From contig CAINCE010000040.1 in assembly GCA_903846945.1 (NCBI GenBank), positions 1 to 37,385 of the forward strand: 37,385 bases of DNA. Direction: 5' to 3'. Each line of letters starts with the position of its first letter. Position 1 is the stretch's first letter. A model generated the notes under the pieces. It saw only the letters and a list, made by a program, of their open reading frames with translations. It was not told where the DNA came from and made no database searches. The translations under genes were made by a program, and so were the position numbers. This DNA comes from an uncultured bacterium (GTDB lineage Bacteria > Patescibacteriota > Minisyncoccia > Phycocordibacterales > PALSA-1337). Shown one piece after another: positions 2,074 through 37,385 of the stretch.

Positions 2074-3405
2074 ATGATTACCCTCGGCATAGAAACATCG
2101 TGCGATGACACCGCTCTCGCAATCATAGAGACACGACAAATGACCGGAAAATCGGCTGATTTGAACGCGACTGGAAAATTAGAAGGTTTGAATGGCGTCC
2201 AAAACACCGAATGTCGCGTCATCAGCTCCCTAGTGCATTCGCAAGCTGAACTCCATAGTGCATATGGCGGTGTATACCCAAATCTAGCCAAGCGTGAACA
2301 TGGCAAGAACCTCGTACCACTCCTACATAAATTATTGGCAGACTATCCAAACACTTCGAAAACGCCCAATATCATAAGTCCAGAAAAGTTTGCGGAAATA
2401 CTTTCACATTTCAAATCAGATCTAGAAGCACAGAATCCAGATCTCTGGCTATCAATATCTGGTGCTGATTTCCTCCGATCGATTCCAGCGATAGATCGTA
2501 TCGCAGTGACTGAAGGACCAGGACTCGAACCTGCACTCTGGGTCGGCATCATATTTGCACGCGTTCTAGGGGCATTGTGGAATATCCCGATAGTGGCAGT
2601 AAATCATATGGAGGGTCACATCCTCGGTTCACTACTAGAGTCTGATAAGGCGACTGGGACTTGGCATAAACTAAAACCGCTTGAATTCCCTGCTCTAGCA
2701 CTGCTCATAAGTGGTGGGCATACGGAACTAGTGAGGATCGACGAGCAAATATATTATGTGCCCGCCTCCGATGGTGCGAATTTCAGACCGAATGATGTCG
2801 AAATGAATTCACTTGTATACACCATCCTTGGACAAACCCTAGATGACGCAGTCGGTGAAGCTTTCGACAAAGTTGCGCGACTCCTAGGACTGCCATATCC
2901 AGGAGGACCACACATTTCCAAGCTCTCCGAAGAAGCCAGTGAACTCATGACACCATCTCCAGTCAAACTACCTAGACCAATGATGAAAAGTGACAACCTC
3001 AACTTCTCCTTTTCAGGTTTGAAGACAGCTGTCCTCTATGCCGTTCGCGCTGCCGTACAACCGGATGGTCGATTGACAGATGAGTTTAAACGAGGTCTAG
3101 CGCACGAATTTGAGCTAGCAGTCACCGAAACCCTAGACTGGAAGCTACGACGCGCTATAGAGCAGATAGGGGCTAAAACGGTCATTGTAGGAGGCGGTGT
3201 TAGTGCCAATAGCATGCTCAGGGAGCGATTTACCAAGGTTGCGGAGAAATACGATATCCCCATCTATCTACCCTCTCGACATATCTCTGGTGACAACGCT
3301 CTCATGATTGCACTAGCTGGAGCTATGGATCCGTCAGAGCCATATTCAAATACTGATTCAAAACCTTTGAAAGCTGATGGAACGAAGAAGTTGGGTCGCA
3401 AGTGA
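2074..3405 (+). CDS. tsaD: tRNA N6-adenosine threonylcarbamoyltransferase TsaD
   Basis: ITLGIETSCDDTALAI, HMEGH metal-binding motif, LISGGHTEL, GGGVSANSMLR, DNALMIALAGA. Confidence 0.95.
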   Translation: MITLGIETSCDDTALAIIETRQMTGKSADLNATGKLEGLNGVQNTECRVISSLVHSQAELHSAYGGVYPNLAKREHGKNLVPLLHKLLADYPNTSKTPNIISPEKFAEILSHFKSDLEAQNPDLWLSISGADFLRSIPAIDRIAVTEGPGLEPALWVGIIFARVLGALWNIPIVAVNHMEGHILGSLLESDKATGTWHKLKPLEFPALALLISGGHTELVRIDEQIYYVPASDGANFRPNDVEMNSLVYTILGQTLDDAVGEAFDKVARLLGLPYPGGPHISKLSEEASELMTPSPVKLPRPMMKSDNLNFSFSGLKTAVLYAVRAAVQPDGRLTDEFKRGLAHEFELAVTETLDWKLRRAIEQIGAKTVIVGGGVSANSMLRERFTKVAEKYDIPIYLPSRHISGDNALMIALAGAMDPSEPYSNTDSKPLKADGTKKLGRK

Positions 3406-3428
3406 TTAGTGATTAGTGATCAGTGATT
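3401..3428. repeat. Heptamer tandem array (AGTGATT)x4 containing the tsaD stop codon
   Basis: agtgatt-agtgatt-agtgatc-agtgatt; the TGA at 3403-3405 is inside the first unit. Confidence 0.9.
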
Positions 3429-3435
3429 AGTAACA

Positions 3436-11826: not shown

Positions 11827-14052
11827 CTACCTCACCTCCCAACCATTCCCCTTCAATGCTTCGTAAATCGCTGTCATTATATTATTTGCTTCATCGTCGG
11901 TGAGCGTCCTCTCCATAGACTGGAATACCATGCGGTACGCGTACGAAACTCTTCCATCCTTCTTAAATGTGTCAAAGAGTGTGTGGCGTGCGAGTAATCG
12001 AATTGCACCAGCGCTCGAATCCAGATCGCTCGGAGAAACATTGCCCACCGCCAGAACTTTCACTGCGGCAATACCATCCTCAATAGTCTTCCAAACCTCC
12101 CCTGCCGTCACGGACTCCGGTACGAATACAGCGACATCACGCACGATGAATGGGTATGACGATATCTTCTGGTAAATATTCGTCGAAGCTGGTCCGAAAC
12201 CAAGGTCATCGTAAGAGGCATCCGCAGGAAGTTTGTAGGATTTCAGCAATTCATTCAGATCGATCTCGATTATTGCAATTGGTCCTTTTTCAATGATTTG
12301 ACTTTGTCCATTTAATTGTTTAATGGTCTTATTGTCTGATTGGTTAATAGTTTCTTTGTCATCCGCTCCGCCGGCCGGTGAATGGCGGATGTCAATACTC
12401 AATTGGTCAATATTCGACTGATCACTTCTCGTTCCAAGCTCTTTGCCAAGAATTTCGATCGCGCTGTCAATCAACTTCTTCCCATTTACACCCTTAACTT
12501 TCCTAACCTGTGCCGCTCCAATGGAAAGCCTGACCGACTCCCCCGCATTACTGAATACATGACCTATCTCAAATACTTTGACAGAGTCTAGTCCGAGTAG
12601 ATCTGCATTCAATATATTTTTCTCCACGCAAGTCATCATGCCGTCGACAAGGGTAGACCTTGCAAAGGCTTTGTCCCTTGCTAGCGGTTTTGCCGTCTCA
12701 ATCTCCCCCTTTGCAACGAGTGAATACAGACTAACCTCGGAATAACCCTGCCCTGTAAGGATATTTTTGATCTTTTCTGCTATATAATAGATCGACAACA
12801 CTCTGATCGTTCCTTCCGGCTTTGGTGGCAATATGCCGACGATATGTTCATAACCGTATATGCGTCCAACTTCTTCTACGATGTCGTCAGGTATTGTTAG
12901 GTCGAGACGATTGAATGGAATGGTGAGTTTCCACATTGATTTATTGTCGACTTTAAGGACTTTACTGACTTGATGGACTTGATGGACTTTACTGACTTTC
13001 GACTCGGCGCTTTCGACCACTATGCCCATACCTTCCAATATCTTCTTTGCCGTCTCAATCGGCACCTCAACTCCGAGTCTCTCATTGATATAATTCGGAT
13101 CCATCTCGATAGTTGTCCGCACAGCCTTGGTCGGATACACATCTACGATGGGACCAAACTTCGCATCAGGGATAGCTTCGAGTATGGTTTCTGACAATTC
13201 ATTCATACCTCCGAGTGCGAGCTCTGGAGTTATCTCATTTTCATATCTCTTTGAAGACTCACTACGTAAATCGTATTTCGTAGAAGTTCTGCGAACAATA
13301 GTTGGATCAAAATTGGCTGACTCAAGTATGAGTCTCTTTGTTTCGCCCGTGATCGCTGCCCTCTTACCACCCTTCACTCCCGCTATAGCGAGCGGGCCTA
13401 TGTCATCAGCGATGACATGGTCAGAATCGCTGAGTTCGATTTCCCTAGCAAGTCCTTCAGATGATTCGAGCAGGGCGATTTTCTCACCTTTCTTCGCAGC
13501 TCGAACGACGATACTACCCTGCACTTTATCTGCATCAAAAGCATGGAGAGGTTGACCGATGTCGAACATAACATAGTTTGTCGCATCGACTATTGAACTG
13601 ATCGTTCGTTGACCTATAGCGTGTAGAGCGGTGCTAACAATTATCGGAGTTTCACCTTTCGAATGTATTTCCACATATCTGCCAACATATCTCCTACAGA
13701 ATCCCTCTGCCCCAATAGTGATCGACGGCTTTTCGATCAAGTCGCCAGAAATTTCAACATTCTTCATCTCCATTCGCGGAGTTTCCGTCATCGAAAATAC
13801 TTCACCTGCAATACCTTTATGACACAATGCATAATGTGCGCGGTCAGGGAGAACTTTCAGATCATAGACGGTATCGACGACCTCGTGCGGTTTTCCATCA
13901 GCAGACTTTCCATTGATCACCGATCCGTCTATACCAATCCTTTCCATACCCTCAACTTCAAATGCATGAAAAGTGAACAACTCATCCAACTTTTCTGGAC
14001 TCGGAAGTGGCTTTGCGAAATATTGTTGTAACCAGTTATGAGATATTTTCAT
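11827..14052 (-). CDS. pheT: Phenylalanine--tRNA ligase subunit beta (without N-terminal EMAP-like tRNA-binding domain)
   Basis: MKISHNWLQQYF start, VDATNYVMFDIGQPLHAFDADKV, B5 and core regions (PDDIVEEVGRIYGYEHI), C-terminal ferredoxin-like anticodon-binding domain (YQKISSYPFIVRDVAVFVPE). Confidence 0.95.
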   Translation of the reverse strand: MKISHNWLQQYFAKPLPSPEKLDELFTFHAFEVEGMERIGIDGSVINGKSADGKPHEVVDTVYDLKVLPDRAHYALCHKGIAGEVFSMTETPRMEMKNVEISGDLIEKPSITIGAEGFCRRYVGRYVEIHSKGETPIIVSTALHAIGQRTISSIVDATNYVMFDIGQPLHAFDADKVQGSIVVRAAKKGEKIALLESSEGLAREIELSDSDHVIADDIGPLAIAGVKGGKRAAITGETKRLILESANFDPTIVRRTSTKYDLRSESSKRYENEITPELALGGMNELSETILEAIPDAKFGPIVDVYPTKAVRTTIEMDPNYINERLGVEVPIETAKKILEGMGIVVESAESKVSKVHQVHQVSKVLKVDNKSMWKLTIPFNRLDLTIPDDIVEEVGRIYGYEHIVGILPPKPEGTIRVLSIYYIAEKIKNILTGQGYSEVSLYSLVAKGEIETAKPLARDKAFARSTLVDGMMTCVEKNILNADLLGLDSVKVFEIGHVFSNAGESVRLSIGAAQVRKVKGVNGKKLIDSAIEILGKELGTRSDQSNIDQLSIDIRHSPAGGADDKETINQSDNKTIKQLNGQSQIIEKGPIAIIEIDLNELLKSYKLPADASYDDLGFGPASTNIYQKISSYPFIVRDVAVFVPESVTAGEVWKTIEDGIAAVKVLAVGNVSPSDLDSSAGAIRLLARHTLFDTFKKDGRVSYAYRMVFQSMERTLTDDEANNIMTAIYEALKGNGWEVR
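12360..12391. repeat. Palindromic element inside pheT: CATCCGC-tCCGCCGGCCGGtgaatg-GCGGATG
   Basis: 7-bp outer inverted repeat (12360-12366/12385-12391) around a CCGGCCGG core; shares TCCGCC/GGCGGA with the palindrome at 3478. Confidence 0.65.
12648..12662. repeat. Hairpin CAAGG-GTAGA-CCTTG (AGGGTAGRCCT core) in pheT
   Basis: Exact 15-mer also found at 32617-32631; related hairpin at 33665-33683. Confidence 0.6.
12949..13002. repeat. In-frame nonamer array (GACTTTANN)x6 inside pheT
   Basis: gactttaag-gactttact-gacttgatg-gacttgatg-gactttact-gactttcga; encodes KVSKVHQVHQVSKVLKV. Confidence 0.92.
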
Positions 14053-25363: not shown

Positions 25364-25469
25364 TTAAAAGTCTGTAAAGTCCTTAAAGTCTTAAAGTGGT
25401 GATTTGAGTGATAAATGACATTTGTTTGATTTATGGACTTTATAAACTTTATAGACTTTCGACTTTATG
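25364..25469. repeat. Inverted nonamer arrays in the rpsI-rplM spacer
   Basis: Left TTAAAAGTC-TGTAAAGTC-CTTAAAGTC; right GACTTTATA-AACTTTATA-GACTTTC-GACTTTATG. Confidence 0.75.
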
Positions 25470-25471
25470 GA

Positions 25472-25816
25472 CTATTCCTTGATTGATAAATTCTGCATTC
25501 TTTTGTCACGCAACCTATTGTCTGGCAACATCCTGTAGATCGCTCTGCGAAATACTTCACCAAAACCGCGTCGTGCTATGAGTGCGGCCAATGTCTCACT
25601 ATTTAATCCTCCACGGTGACCTGTATAAGTGACATAGACATCCTTGATCTTCTTCTCCGCAGAAATATCCGCCATCGCGACATTGGAAATCTCTACTTTC
25701 GTATCTGCGATTTTGTTCTTCGCAAAAGTTGGTGAATTCTTACCCATGAGAACAGAAGCTGCTTCACTAGCAACTCTTCCCAACTTTCTTCCTTGTGCAT
25801 CGATCTTGTAATTCAT
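25472..25816 (-). CDS. rplM: 50S ribosomal protein L13
   Basis: IDAQGRKLGRVASEAASVLMGK ... VYVTYTGHRGGLNSETL ... FRRAIYRMLPDNRLRDKRMQNL. Confidence 0.95.
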   Translation of the reverse strand: MNYKIDAQGRKLGRVASEAASVLMGKNSPTFAKNKIADTKVEISNVAMADISAEKKIKDVYVTYTGHRGGLNSETLAALIARRGFGEVFRRAIYRMLPDNRLRDKRMQNLSIKE

Positions 25817-25913: not shown

Positions 25914-26264
25914 CTAAACAAACTCGATAATAGCCATCGCCGCACCATCTAGGACGCGATTGGGCATTTTGATAATCCTAGTGTATCCTCCTGCGCGTTT
26001 CATGTACTTGGGAGCAAGGACATCGAAAAGTTTCTTTGTCTCATCACTACCCTGTATACGAGCATTGACTATGCGTCTACCTGCTACCGTACCAGACTTT
26101 GCAGAAGTAATCAATTTCTCCACAAAAGGACGAACTTCCTTGGCCTTCGCTAGAGTCGTGCGCATCTTGTCATCACGAATGAGGTTGCGCGCCAAAGAAC
26201 GCATGAGAGCATGTCTCTGTGTCTTTTCTCTGCCGAATTTTCTTGTGTTTGAATGGTGTCTCAT
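25914..26264 (-). CDS. rplQ: 50S ribosomal protein L17
   Basis: MRHHSNTRKFGREKTQRHALMRSLARNLI ... LFDVLAPKYMKRAGGYTRIIK. Confidence 0.97.
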   Translation of the reverse strand: MRHHSNTRKFGREKTQRHALMRSLARNLIRDDKMRTTLAKAKEVRPFVEKLITSAKSGTVAGRRIVNARIQGSDETKKLFDVLAPKYMKRAGGYTRIIKMPNRVLDGAAMAIIEFV

Positions 26265-26326
26265 ATTAGTTAAGTCCTTAAAGTCTGAAAGTTTTTAAAG
26301 TCCCTACTTTATGGACTTTCGACTTT

Positions 26327-27982: not shown

Positions 27983-27994
27983 GTTATTTGAATA

Positions 27995-28073
27995 GATTTA
28001 TGATTTAAGATTTATGATTTAAGATTCATCGCATTTTTTTCTTCGTAAATCCTAAATCGTAAATCTTAAATCT
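27995..28073. repeat. Inverted heptamer arrays (GATTTAN)n forming a 25-bp hairpin in the rpsD-rpsK spacer
   Basis: GATTTAAGATTTATGATTTAAGATT (28002-28026) pairs with AATCCTAAATCGTAAATCTTAAATC (28048-28072): two non-Watson-Crick positions, one of them a G-U wobble. Confidence 0.9.
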
Positions 28074-28078
28074 TGTGA

Positions 28079-28542: not shown

Positions 28543-28596
28543 GACTTTATGGACTTTCCGGACTTTATAGACTTTATGGACTTTATGGACTTTCCG
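28543..28596. repeat. Nonamer array (GACTTTATG)x6 in the rpsK-rpsM spacer
   Basis: gactttatg-gactttccg-gactttata-gactttatg-gactttatg-gactttccg. Confidence 0.95.

Positions 28597-37296: not shown

Positions 37297-37385
<89 letters not shown>

Follow-up and report, generated by a model that had tools for sequence, protein, structure and literature searches.

An in-frame nonamer array in pheT of a patescibacterial genome, probably a tolerated copy of an interspersed spacer repeat

Rickettsia palindromic elements, the closest case described, are units of about 150 bp that encode a conserved peptide (Ogata 2000, 2002; reviewed in PMC10969869). Borg tandem repeats (aaTRs) consist of mostly perfect units that are virtually unique to each locus, and they are found mainly in surface proteins (PMC9879509). 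The 23S rRNA of CPR bacteria often carries short insertions that are not introns, also at known IVS sites (PMC11270868), and in the Beggiatoaceae the 7-bp word TAACTGA forms intergenic direct repeats, with a few sets inside ORFs (PMC4679880). Here we describe a 9-bp repeat that lies between genes, in frame within protein genes and in the 23S rRNA gene.

The window analysed, 37,385 nucleotides long, is one of the 77 contigs (number 40) in a draft genome of 0.98 Mb, whose named relatives are the Patescibacteria lineages Taylor-, Vogel-, Nomura-, Campbell- and Kaiserbacteria. It includes pheT (11827..14052, minus strand), the sole copy found in the genome, which encodes the 741-aa beta subunit of phenylalanine-tRNA ligase; Pfam recognises the B3/4, B5 and FDX-ACB domains as well as the synthetase core. 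As the first-pass annotation had proposed, the gene contains six in-frame 9-bp units (12949..13002, 54 bp, with the array word on the plus strand), which TRF reports at period 9 with a score of 53. The units are, in order, GACTTTAAG, GACTTTACT, GACTTGATG, GACTTGATG, GACTTTACT and GACTTTCGA; three contain GACTTTA (GACTTTANN) exactly and three with one mismatch, so that "six GACTTTANN" was right in number and slightly generous as to the word. The coding (minus) strand reads TCG(AAAGTCNNT)n, and the array encodes the 18-residue peptide SKVSKVHQVHQVSKVLKV, residues 351-368 of PheT, which corrects an earlier range of 348-366 by 2-3 positions. A chance origin is disfavoured: 3000 codon-shuffled versions of pheT contained no run of more than three units, against six in the real gene.

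An array of the same word, also of six units and with the same period and orientation, lies on the plus strand between the ribosomal-protein genes rpsK and rpsM (28543..28596). It is real; four of its units have GACTTTA and two have GACTTTC. This array is a single arm without a hairpin, and the pheT array is likewise a single arm that does not fold (z -0.5). Two other spacers (features without assigned strand) contain nonamer hairpins, one with a TAAAGTC arm, a loop and a GACTTTA arm (25366..25476, z -5.2) and a second, shorter one (26264..26326, z -2.9); a third unstranded spacer hairpin has the same architecture and a different 7-bp word, GATTTAT/TAAATCT (27994..28074, z -7.7). Other short repeats in the window are AGTGATT heptamers at 3401-3431 and 12.7 perfect copies of TAGCCAC at 37297-37385, where the contig ends, which suggests that short tandem repeats interrupt the assembly.

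The word belongs to a family interspersed throughout the genome. The exact pair GACTTTANNGACTTTA occurs 123 times, against 0 for the reversed control pattern, and the window alone has 25 two-unit matches (at most three mismatches), where 4.1 are expected and the maximum in 100 shuffles is 10. Anchoring on one unit and reading the following unit, we measured strong constraint on GACTTT, less on the A and little on the last two positions (Y, R); this held in all six genomes tested, which have the same consensus, GACTTTAYR. The repeat was found in 18 of 147 relatives, with a patchy distribution in the order. A phylum-wide sample of 287 genomes gave 10 with the repeat, including G305, a member of a different class, with 27 copies.

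We took a census of arrays of at least three units in 303 kb of the 980 kb, chosen to cover nearly all exact sites, using gene calls from a home-made caller. The coding fraction of this sequence is 0.76, yet 39 of the 45 arrays are intergenic; of the other six, five belong to the 23S region, and pheT has the only one inside a gene. Sorting the arrays genome-wide into coding and intergenic, as had been suggested, thus gives an overwhelmingly intergenic family, with further coding cases here and in relatives (see below). For 10 of the 39 intergenic arrays there is a partner no more than 200 bp away that gives the order TAAAGTC...GACTTTA; none has a partner in the opposite order. We judge it unlikely that these hairpins serve generally as terminators, because hairpins also lie within the transcribed 23S gene. 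All 45 arrays leave three of the six reading frames open: AAA-GTC-NNT and NTA-AAG-TCN, which give Lys-rich hydrophilic peptides, and GAC-TTT-ANN, which gives Asp-Phe.

In PheT, the loop excerpt running from EGMGIVV to WK has 36 residues, or 18 without the array. In the nearest relatives, G006 and G028, with identities of 72% and 71%, the same loop has 26 and 28 residues of unrelated sequence, 8-10 fewer than here; the loop measures 12-21 residues in most of the genus and 12-28 in nearly all congeners. The array peptide is absent from PheT of the PDB species and of about 40 relatives, and a PDB PheRS alignment has a gap opposite the segment. The proposal that the repeat entered in frame in this lineage as an extra linker is supported by these comparisons, and the suggested alignment of orthologs yielded relatives without the array and a peptide that is not conserved. 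In an AlphaFold2 model of PheT (20-sequence alignment; mean pLDDT 81, pTM 0.57), pLDDT is below 50 at residues 351-370, which are flanked by strands at 345-349 and 373-377. This places the array at the predicted tip of a beta-hairpin of the B5 domain. A Foldseek search with the model confirmed the PheT fold and gave nothing further. A second variable linker of PheT, at about residues 543-582 (12307..12426, minus strand), is also predicted to be disordered.

The same PheT loop is filled by other sequence elsewhere. In the sister species G016 it holds a palindrome, GTCATTCCCACGAAGGCGGGAATCCAG...CTGGATTCCCGCCTTCGCGGGAATGAC, whose half-site has 83 copies in that genome, two of them within the pheT copy. 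In five genomes from five other families of the order (G047, G049, G050, G052 and G059; loci L116-L120) the B5 loop is longer by about 145 residues, and NLPC_P60 scored above its cut-off in all three long-loop proteins scanned (62.8-67.7 bits). FDCSS and HxGIYxG-like motifs are visible in the alignment, and the inserts of the three that were scanned have apparent Cys and His motifs. The long-loop PheT carries a cell-wall-hydrolase fold within a tRNA synthetase subunit; a literature search found no paper on an NlpC/P60 domain inside PheT. It is therefore partly true that distant orthologs carry an equivalent linker of unrelated DNA sequence, an outcome that had been named as evidence against a lineage-specific entry: in other lineages the loop holds another repeat or an NlpC/P60 domain. 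Such varied filling shows that the site is permissive and that no linker is conserved there; the B5 loop is a hotspot that tolerates anything from a few residues up to a whole domain.

Our first census had pheT as the sole coding array of this genome, a result overturned by a k-mer scan, which added gyrA, rpoC and the tails of rplV and dedA (host genes here and below named from NCBIfam and Pfam). Among relatives, G011 has nonamer arrays in ArgS (SIKSIKSGKSIKSIKSGKS), TrmD (KSIKSIKSVKS) and the tail of a MurC-type ligase; G084 in RsmA (FTDFMDF) and the RplV tail; G039 in LeuRS and a GT4 glycosyltransferase; G052 in a DusB-type tail; and G305 in MnmA and Elp3. In the MnmA of G305 (L319 807-1922), the nonamer array adjoins a translated GGCGGGAATCCAG-type palindrome (SFPRRRESS) in one loop. 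PDB homologs have a gap opposite the insert in PheT, MnmA, Elp3, GyrA and RpoC, and the arrays of LeuRS and RsmA lie in variable loops with no clear net lengthening relative to PDB homologs. The TAAAGTC strand is read in 13 of 15 coding cases, giving Lys-rich peptides (two-sided p ~0.007); as an absolute rule this sense fails, since RsmA and RpoC read GACTTTA. Two-unit matches in FtsE of G024 and in the FDX-ACB domain of G052 PheT were set aside as probable coincidences with conserved protein sequence. The first-pass annotation had argued that a 9-bp period lets the repeat enter genes without a frameshift. This period, found in the pheT, argS and trmD arrays, does help, but it is not strictly required: the gyrA copy is irregular, with units 7-9 bp apart, yet in frame.

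Other congeners have different repeat-like sequence in the loops of TrmD and ArgS, and ArgS of the genome studied here (L303) has a 9-bp repeat of another word (GCAACTTCC-like, KTSKFSATSATSAKS) at the place of the nonamer in G011. The C-terminal tail of RplV ends in nonamer-coded KSIKSVKS/KSVKSVKS in members of two families within the order (L135 2300-2656, L218 2440-2865), which suggests that this tail may be a recurrent target. Around residues 70-87 of SecA (L148 2050-4818) there is a CCCTAAAC-like repeat (KPYPLNSKPYTLNPIPSN) in frame. The C-terminal region of DnaK (L127 5005-6993) contains SSYAKASEDKQG, which resembles SSYAKVSKDKQ in the ArgS loop of G003 (L246) and is probably another repeat family.

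The 23S rRNA gene, on contig 63, was aligned to E. coli rrlH. Three nonamer hairpins are inserted after E. coli nucleotides ~177, 274-291 and 540-558 (H25). A 681-nt insert at position 2593, by its site and sequence a probable group I intron, contains another four. All seven hairpins of the 23S region (L141 2765-3525 and 6230-6875) fold with z between -3.0 and -10.0. Further 23S inserts are found at 1163, 1865 and 1931. No two-unit matches were present at the 23S loci of three congeners, G020, G018 and G011.

The explanation we favour, at roughly three chances in four, is that the pheT array is a copy of the interspersed GACTTTAYR family, whose copies are tolerated as a Lys-rich disordered loop or as an RNA hairpin. 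The family resides mostly in spacers, often as paired inverted arms that form ladder-like hairpins, and copies entering transcribed genes would persist only where they are harmless. In rRNA, the harmless sites would be the 23S expansion helices and one intron, where paired arms lengthen a helix; in proteins, they would be surface loops and tails of housekeeping proteins, occupied mostly by single-arm in-frame arrays. Arrays landing in a tolerated sense in a loop or tail would be kept and others purged, with purifying selection acting as the filter. The PheT copy adds to the B5 hairpin loop 18 Lys/Val-rich, probably disordered residues, which would be a neutral peptide with no function of its own.

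Alternatively, the array could have arisen by local tandem expansion, in which replication slippage amplified an AAAGTC-like stretch that happened to be present in the loop, with no contribution from the spacers, in parallel with the Borg repeats, which are inferred to be locally derived (PMC9879509). Homogeneous arrays clearly do grow in place: nearly all of the ~15 units at C28 have a CA linker, and the 24-unit array at C32 includes a 90-bp higher-order duplication. However, one word with the same variable positions is found at dozens of unrelated loci and in six surveyed genomes, and the arrays have a common end junction, GACTTTCGACT, with 27 occurrences in 303 kb of the genome; independent seeds would yield locus-specific words, as in Borgs. 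We therefore regard expansion independent of the spacers as unlikely. The shared word and junction favour copying from the existing family over slippage alone, and the homogeneous long arrays point to later slippage, so that both processes probably act.

A further possibility, doubtful though worth entertaining, is that GACTTTAYR is a conserved, phylum-wide signal for RNA processing or mobility. A dedicated factor would cut or bind its ladder hairpins (7-bp stems, 2x2 loops), both between the genes of operons and within 23S rRNA; copying machinery would spread the signal and also seed new in-frame loops in essential proteins.

It is very improbable that selection maintains the KVx peptide as a functional addition to PheT, such as a basic arm contacting tRNA or binding a protein. 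The basic character of the peptide and the lengthening of the loop in several lineages, up to the NlpC/P60 domain, would fit such a role, but the loops of the nearest relatives are unrelated in sequence, most loops are short, the segment is predicted to be disordered, and the same repeat occurs in unrelated proteins and rRNA. We give next to no weight to a coincidental resemblance between low-complexity Lys/Val-rich coding sequence and the spacer word, which is conceivable for two units, as in the FtsE and FDX-ACB matches, but not for six, which 0 of 3000 codon shuffles reach, in a segment that orthologs lack and that has its junction in common with spacer arrays. Equally negligible is a repeat-induced misjoin in assembly or binning that put spacer sequence into pheT: the draft is fragmented, repeats break assemblies and the window ends in a heptamer array, but the frame is kept, both flanks are homologous to PheT, and in-frame arrays occur independently in several other assemblies.

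In-frame repeats in genes, from Rickettsia (PMC10969869) and Borgs (PMC9879509), and insertions in CPR rRNA (PMC11270868) are already known. In the open-licence literature searched, we found neither a description of these repeats in Patescibacteria nor a link between a spacer word, protein loops and 23S hairpins; in the main text of PMC11270868 the words "repeat" and "hairpin" occur nowhere, and no link to a spacer word is made there. On the favoured reading, non-coding repeats become protein sequence and rRNA extensions in very reduced genomes, in genes that cannot be lost, and the recognisable word makes the origin of new protein loops, and the sites that tolerate them, traceable. The word also makes it possible to ask whether the rRNA insertions known to be abundant in these bacteria have the same source. 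Caution is warranted before the variable loops of Patescibacteria proteins are read as adaptive, as they may be debris left recently by repeats.

Cyanobacterial STRRs are intergenic arrays of a short, 7-bp word, mostly in direct repeats. They and TAACTGA resemble the nonamer in forming short-word arrays between genes with a patchy distribution over distant lineages, whereas the nonamer is 9 bp long, often forms inverted pairs, and keeps frame in its coding copies. REP-type elements are intergenic palindromic repeats (cf. PMC3733652). A palindrome of G016, GTCATTCCC...GGGAATGAC, occupies the same pheT loop; the nonamer element differs from REP-type repeats in consisting of AT-rich tandem words and in having no fixed length. 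Transposon-derived MITEs are marked by terminal inverted repeats, a target-site duplication and a cognate transposase. As to the inverted repeats, an inverted partner within 200 bp is confined to the 10 of 39 intergenic arrays noted above, and the pheT copy has one arm. Intervening sequences of 23S rRNA are excised by RNase III, which leaves the 23S rRNA in fragments. Like them, the nonamer forms hairpin inserts in 23S rRNA, including a stem-loop at an expansion helix, H25 (E. coli ~540-558), but these are built from the genome's own spacer repeat word. With Borg repeats it has in common tandem repeats both between genes and in ORFs, disordered regions, and ORF units divisible by three (9 bp in pheT, argS and trmD). 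It differs in that its unit is not unique to a locus: a single imperfect word, with one consensus at all loci in six genomes, recurs genome-wide and across families, in core information-processing genes. Rickettsia palindromic elements, finally, are likewise interspersed in a reduced genome and lie both in spacers and in frame in unrelated housekeeping genes, to which they add a peptide, as the nonamer does here. In place of a palindrome of ~150 bp with a conserved peptide, however, the repeat described here consists of a 9-bp word in tandem, in varying copy number (54 bp in pheT), which is read in several frames and both senses to give different peptides (KVx, xKS, DFx). Within genes it usually has a single arm, and the 23S rRNA bears it as well.
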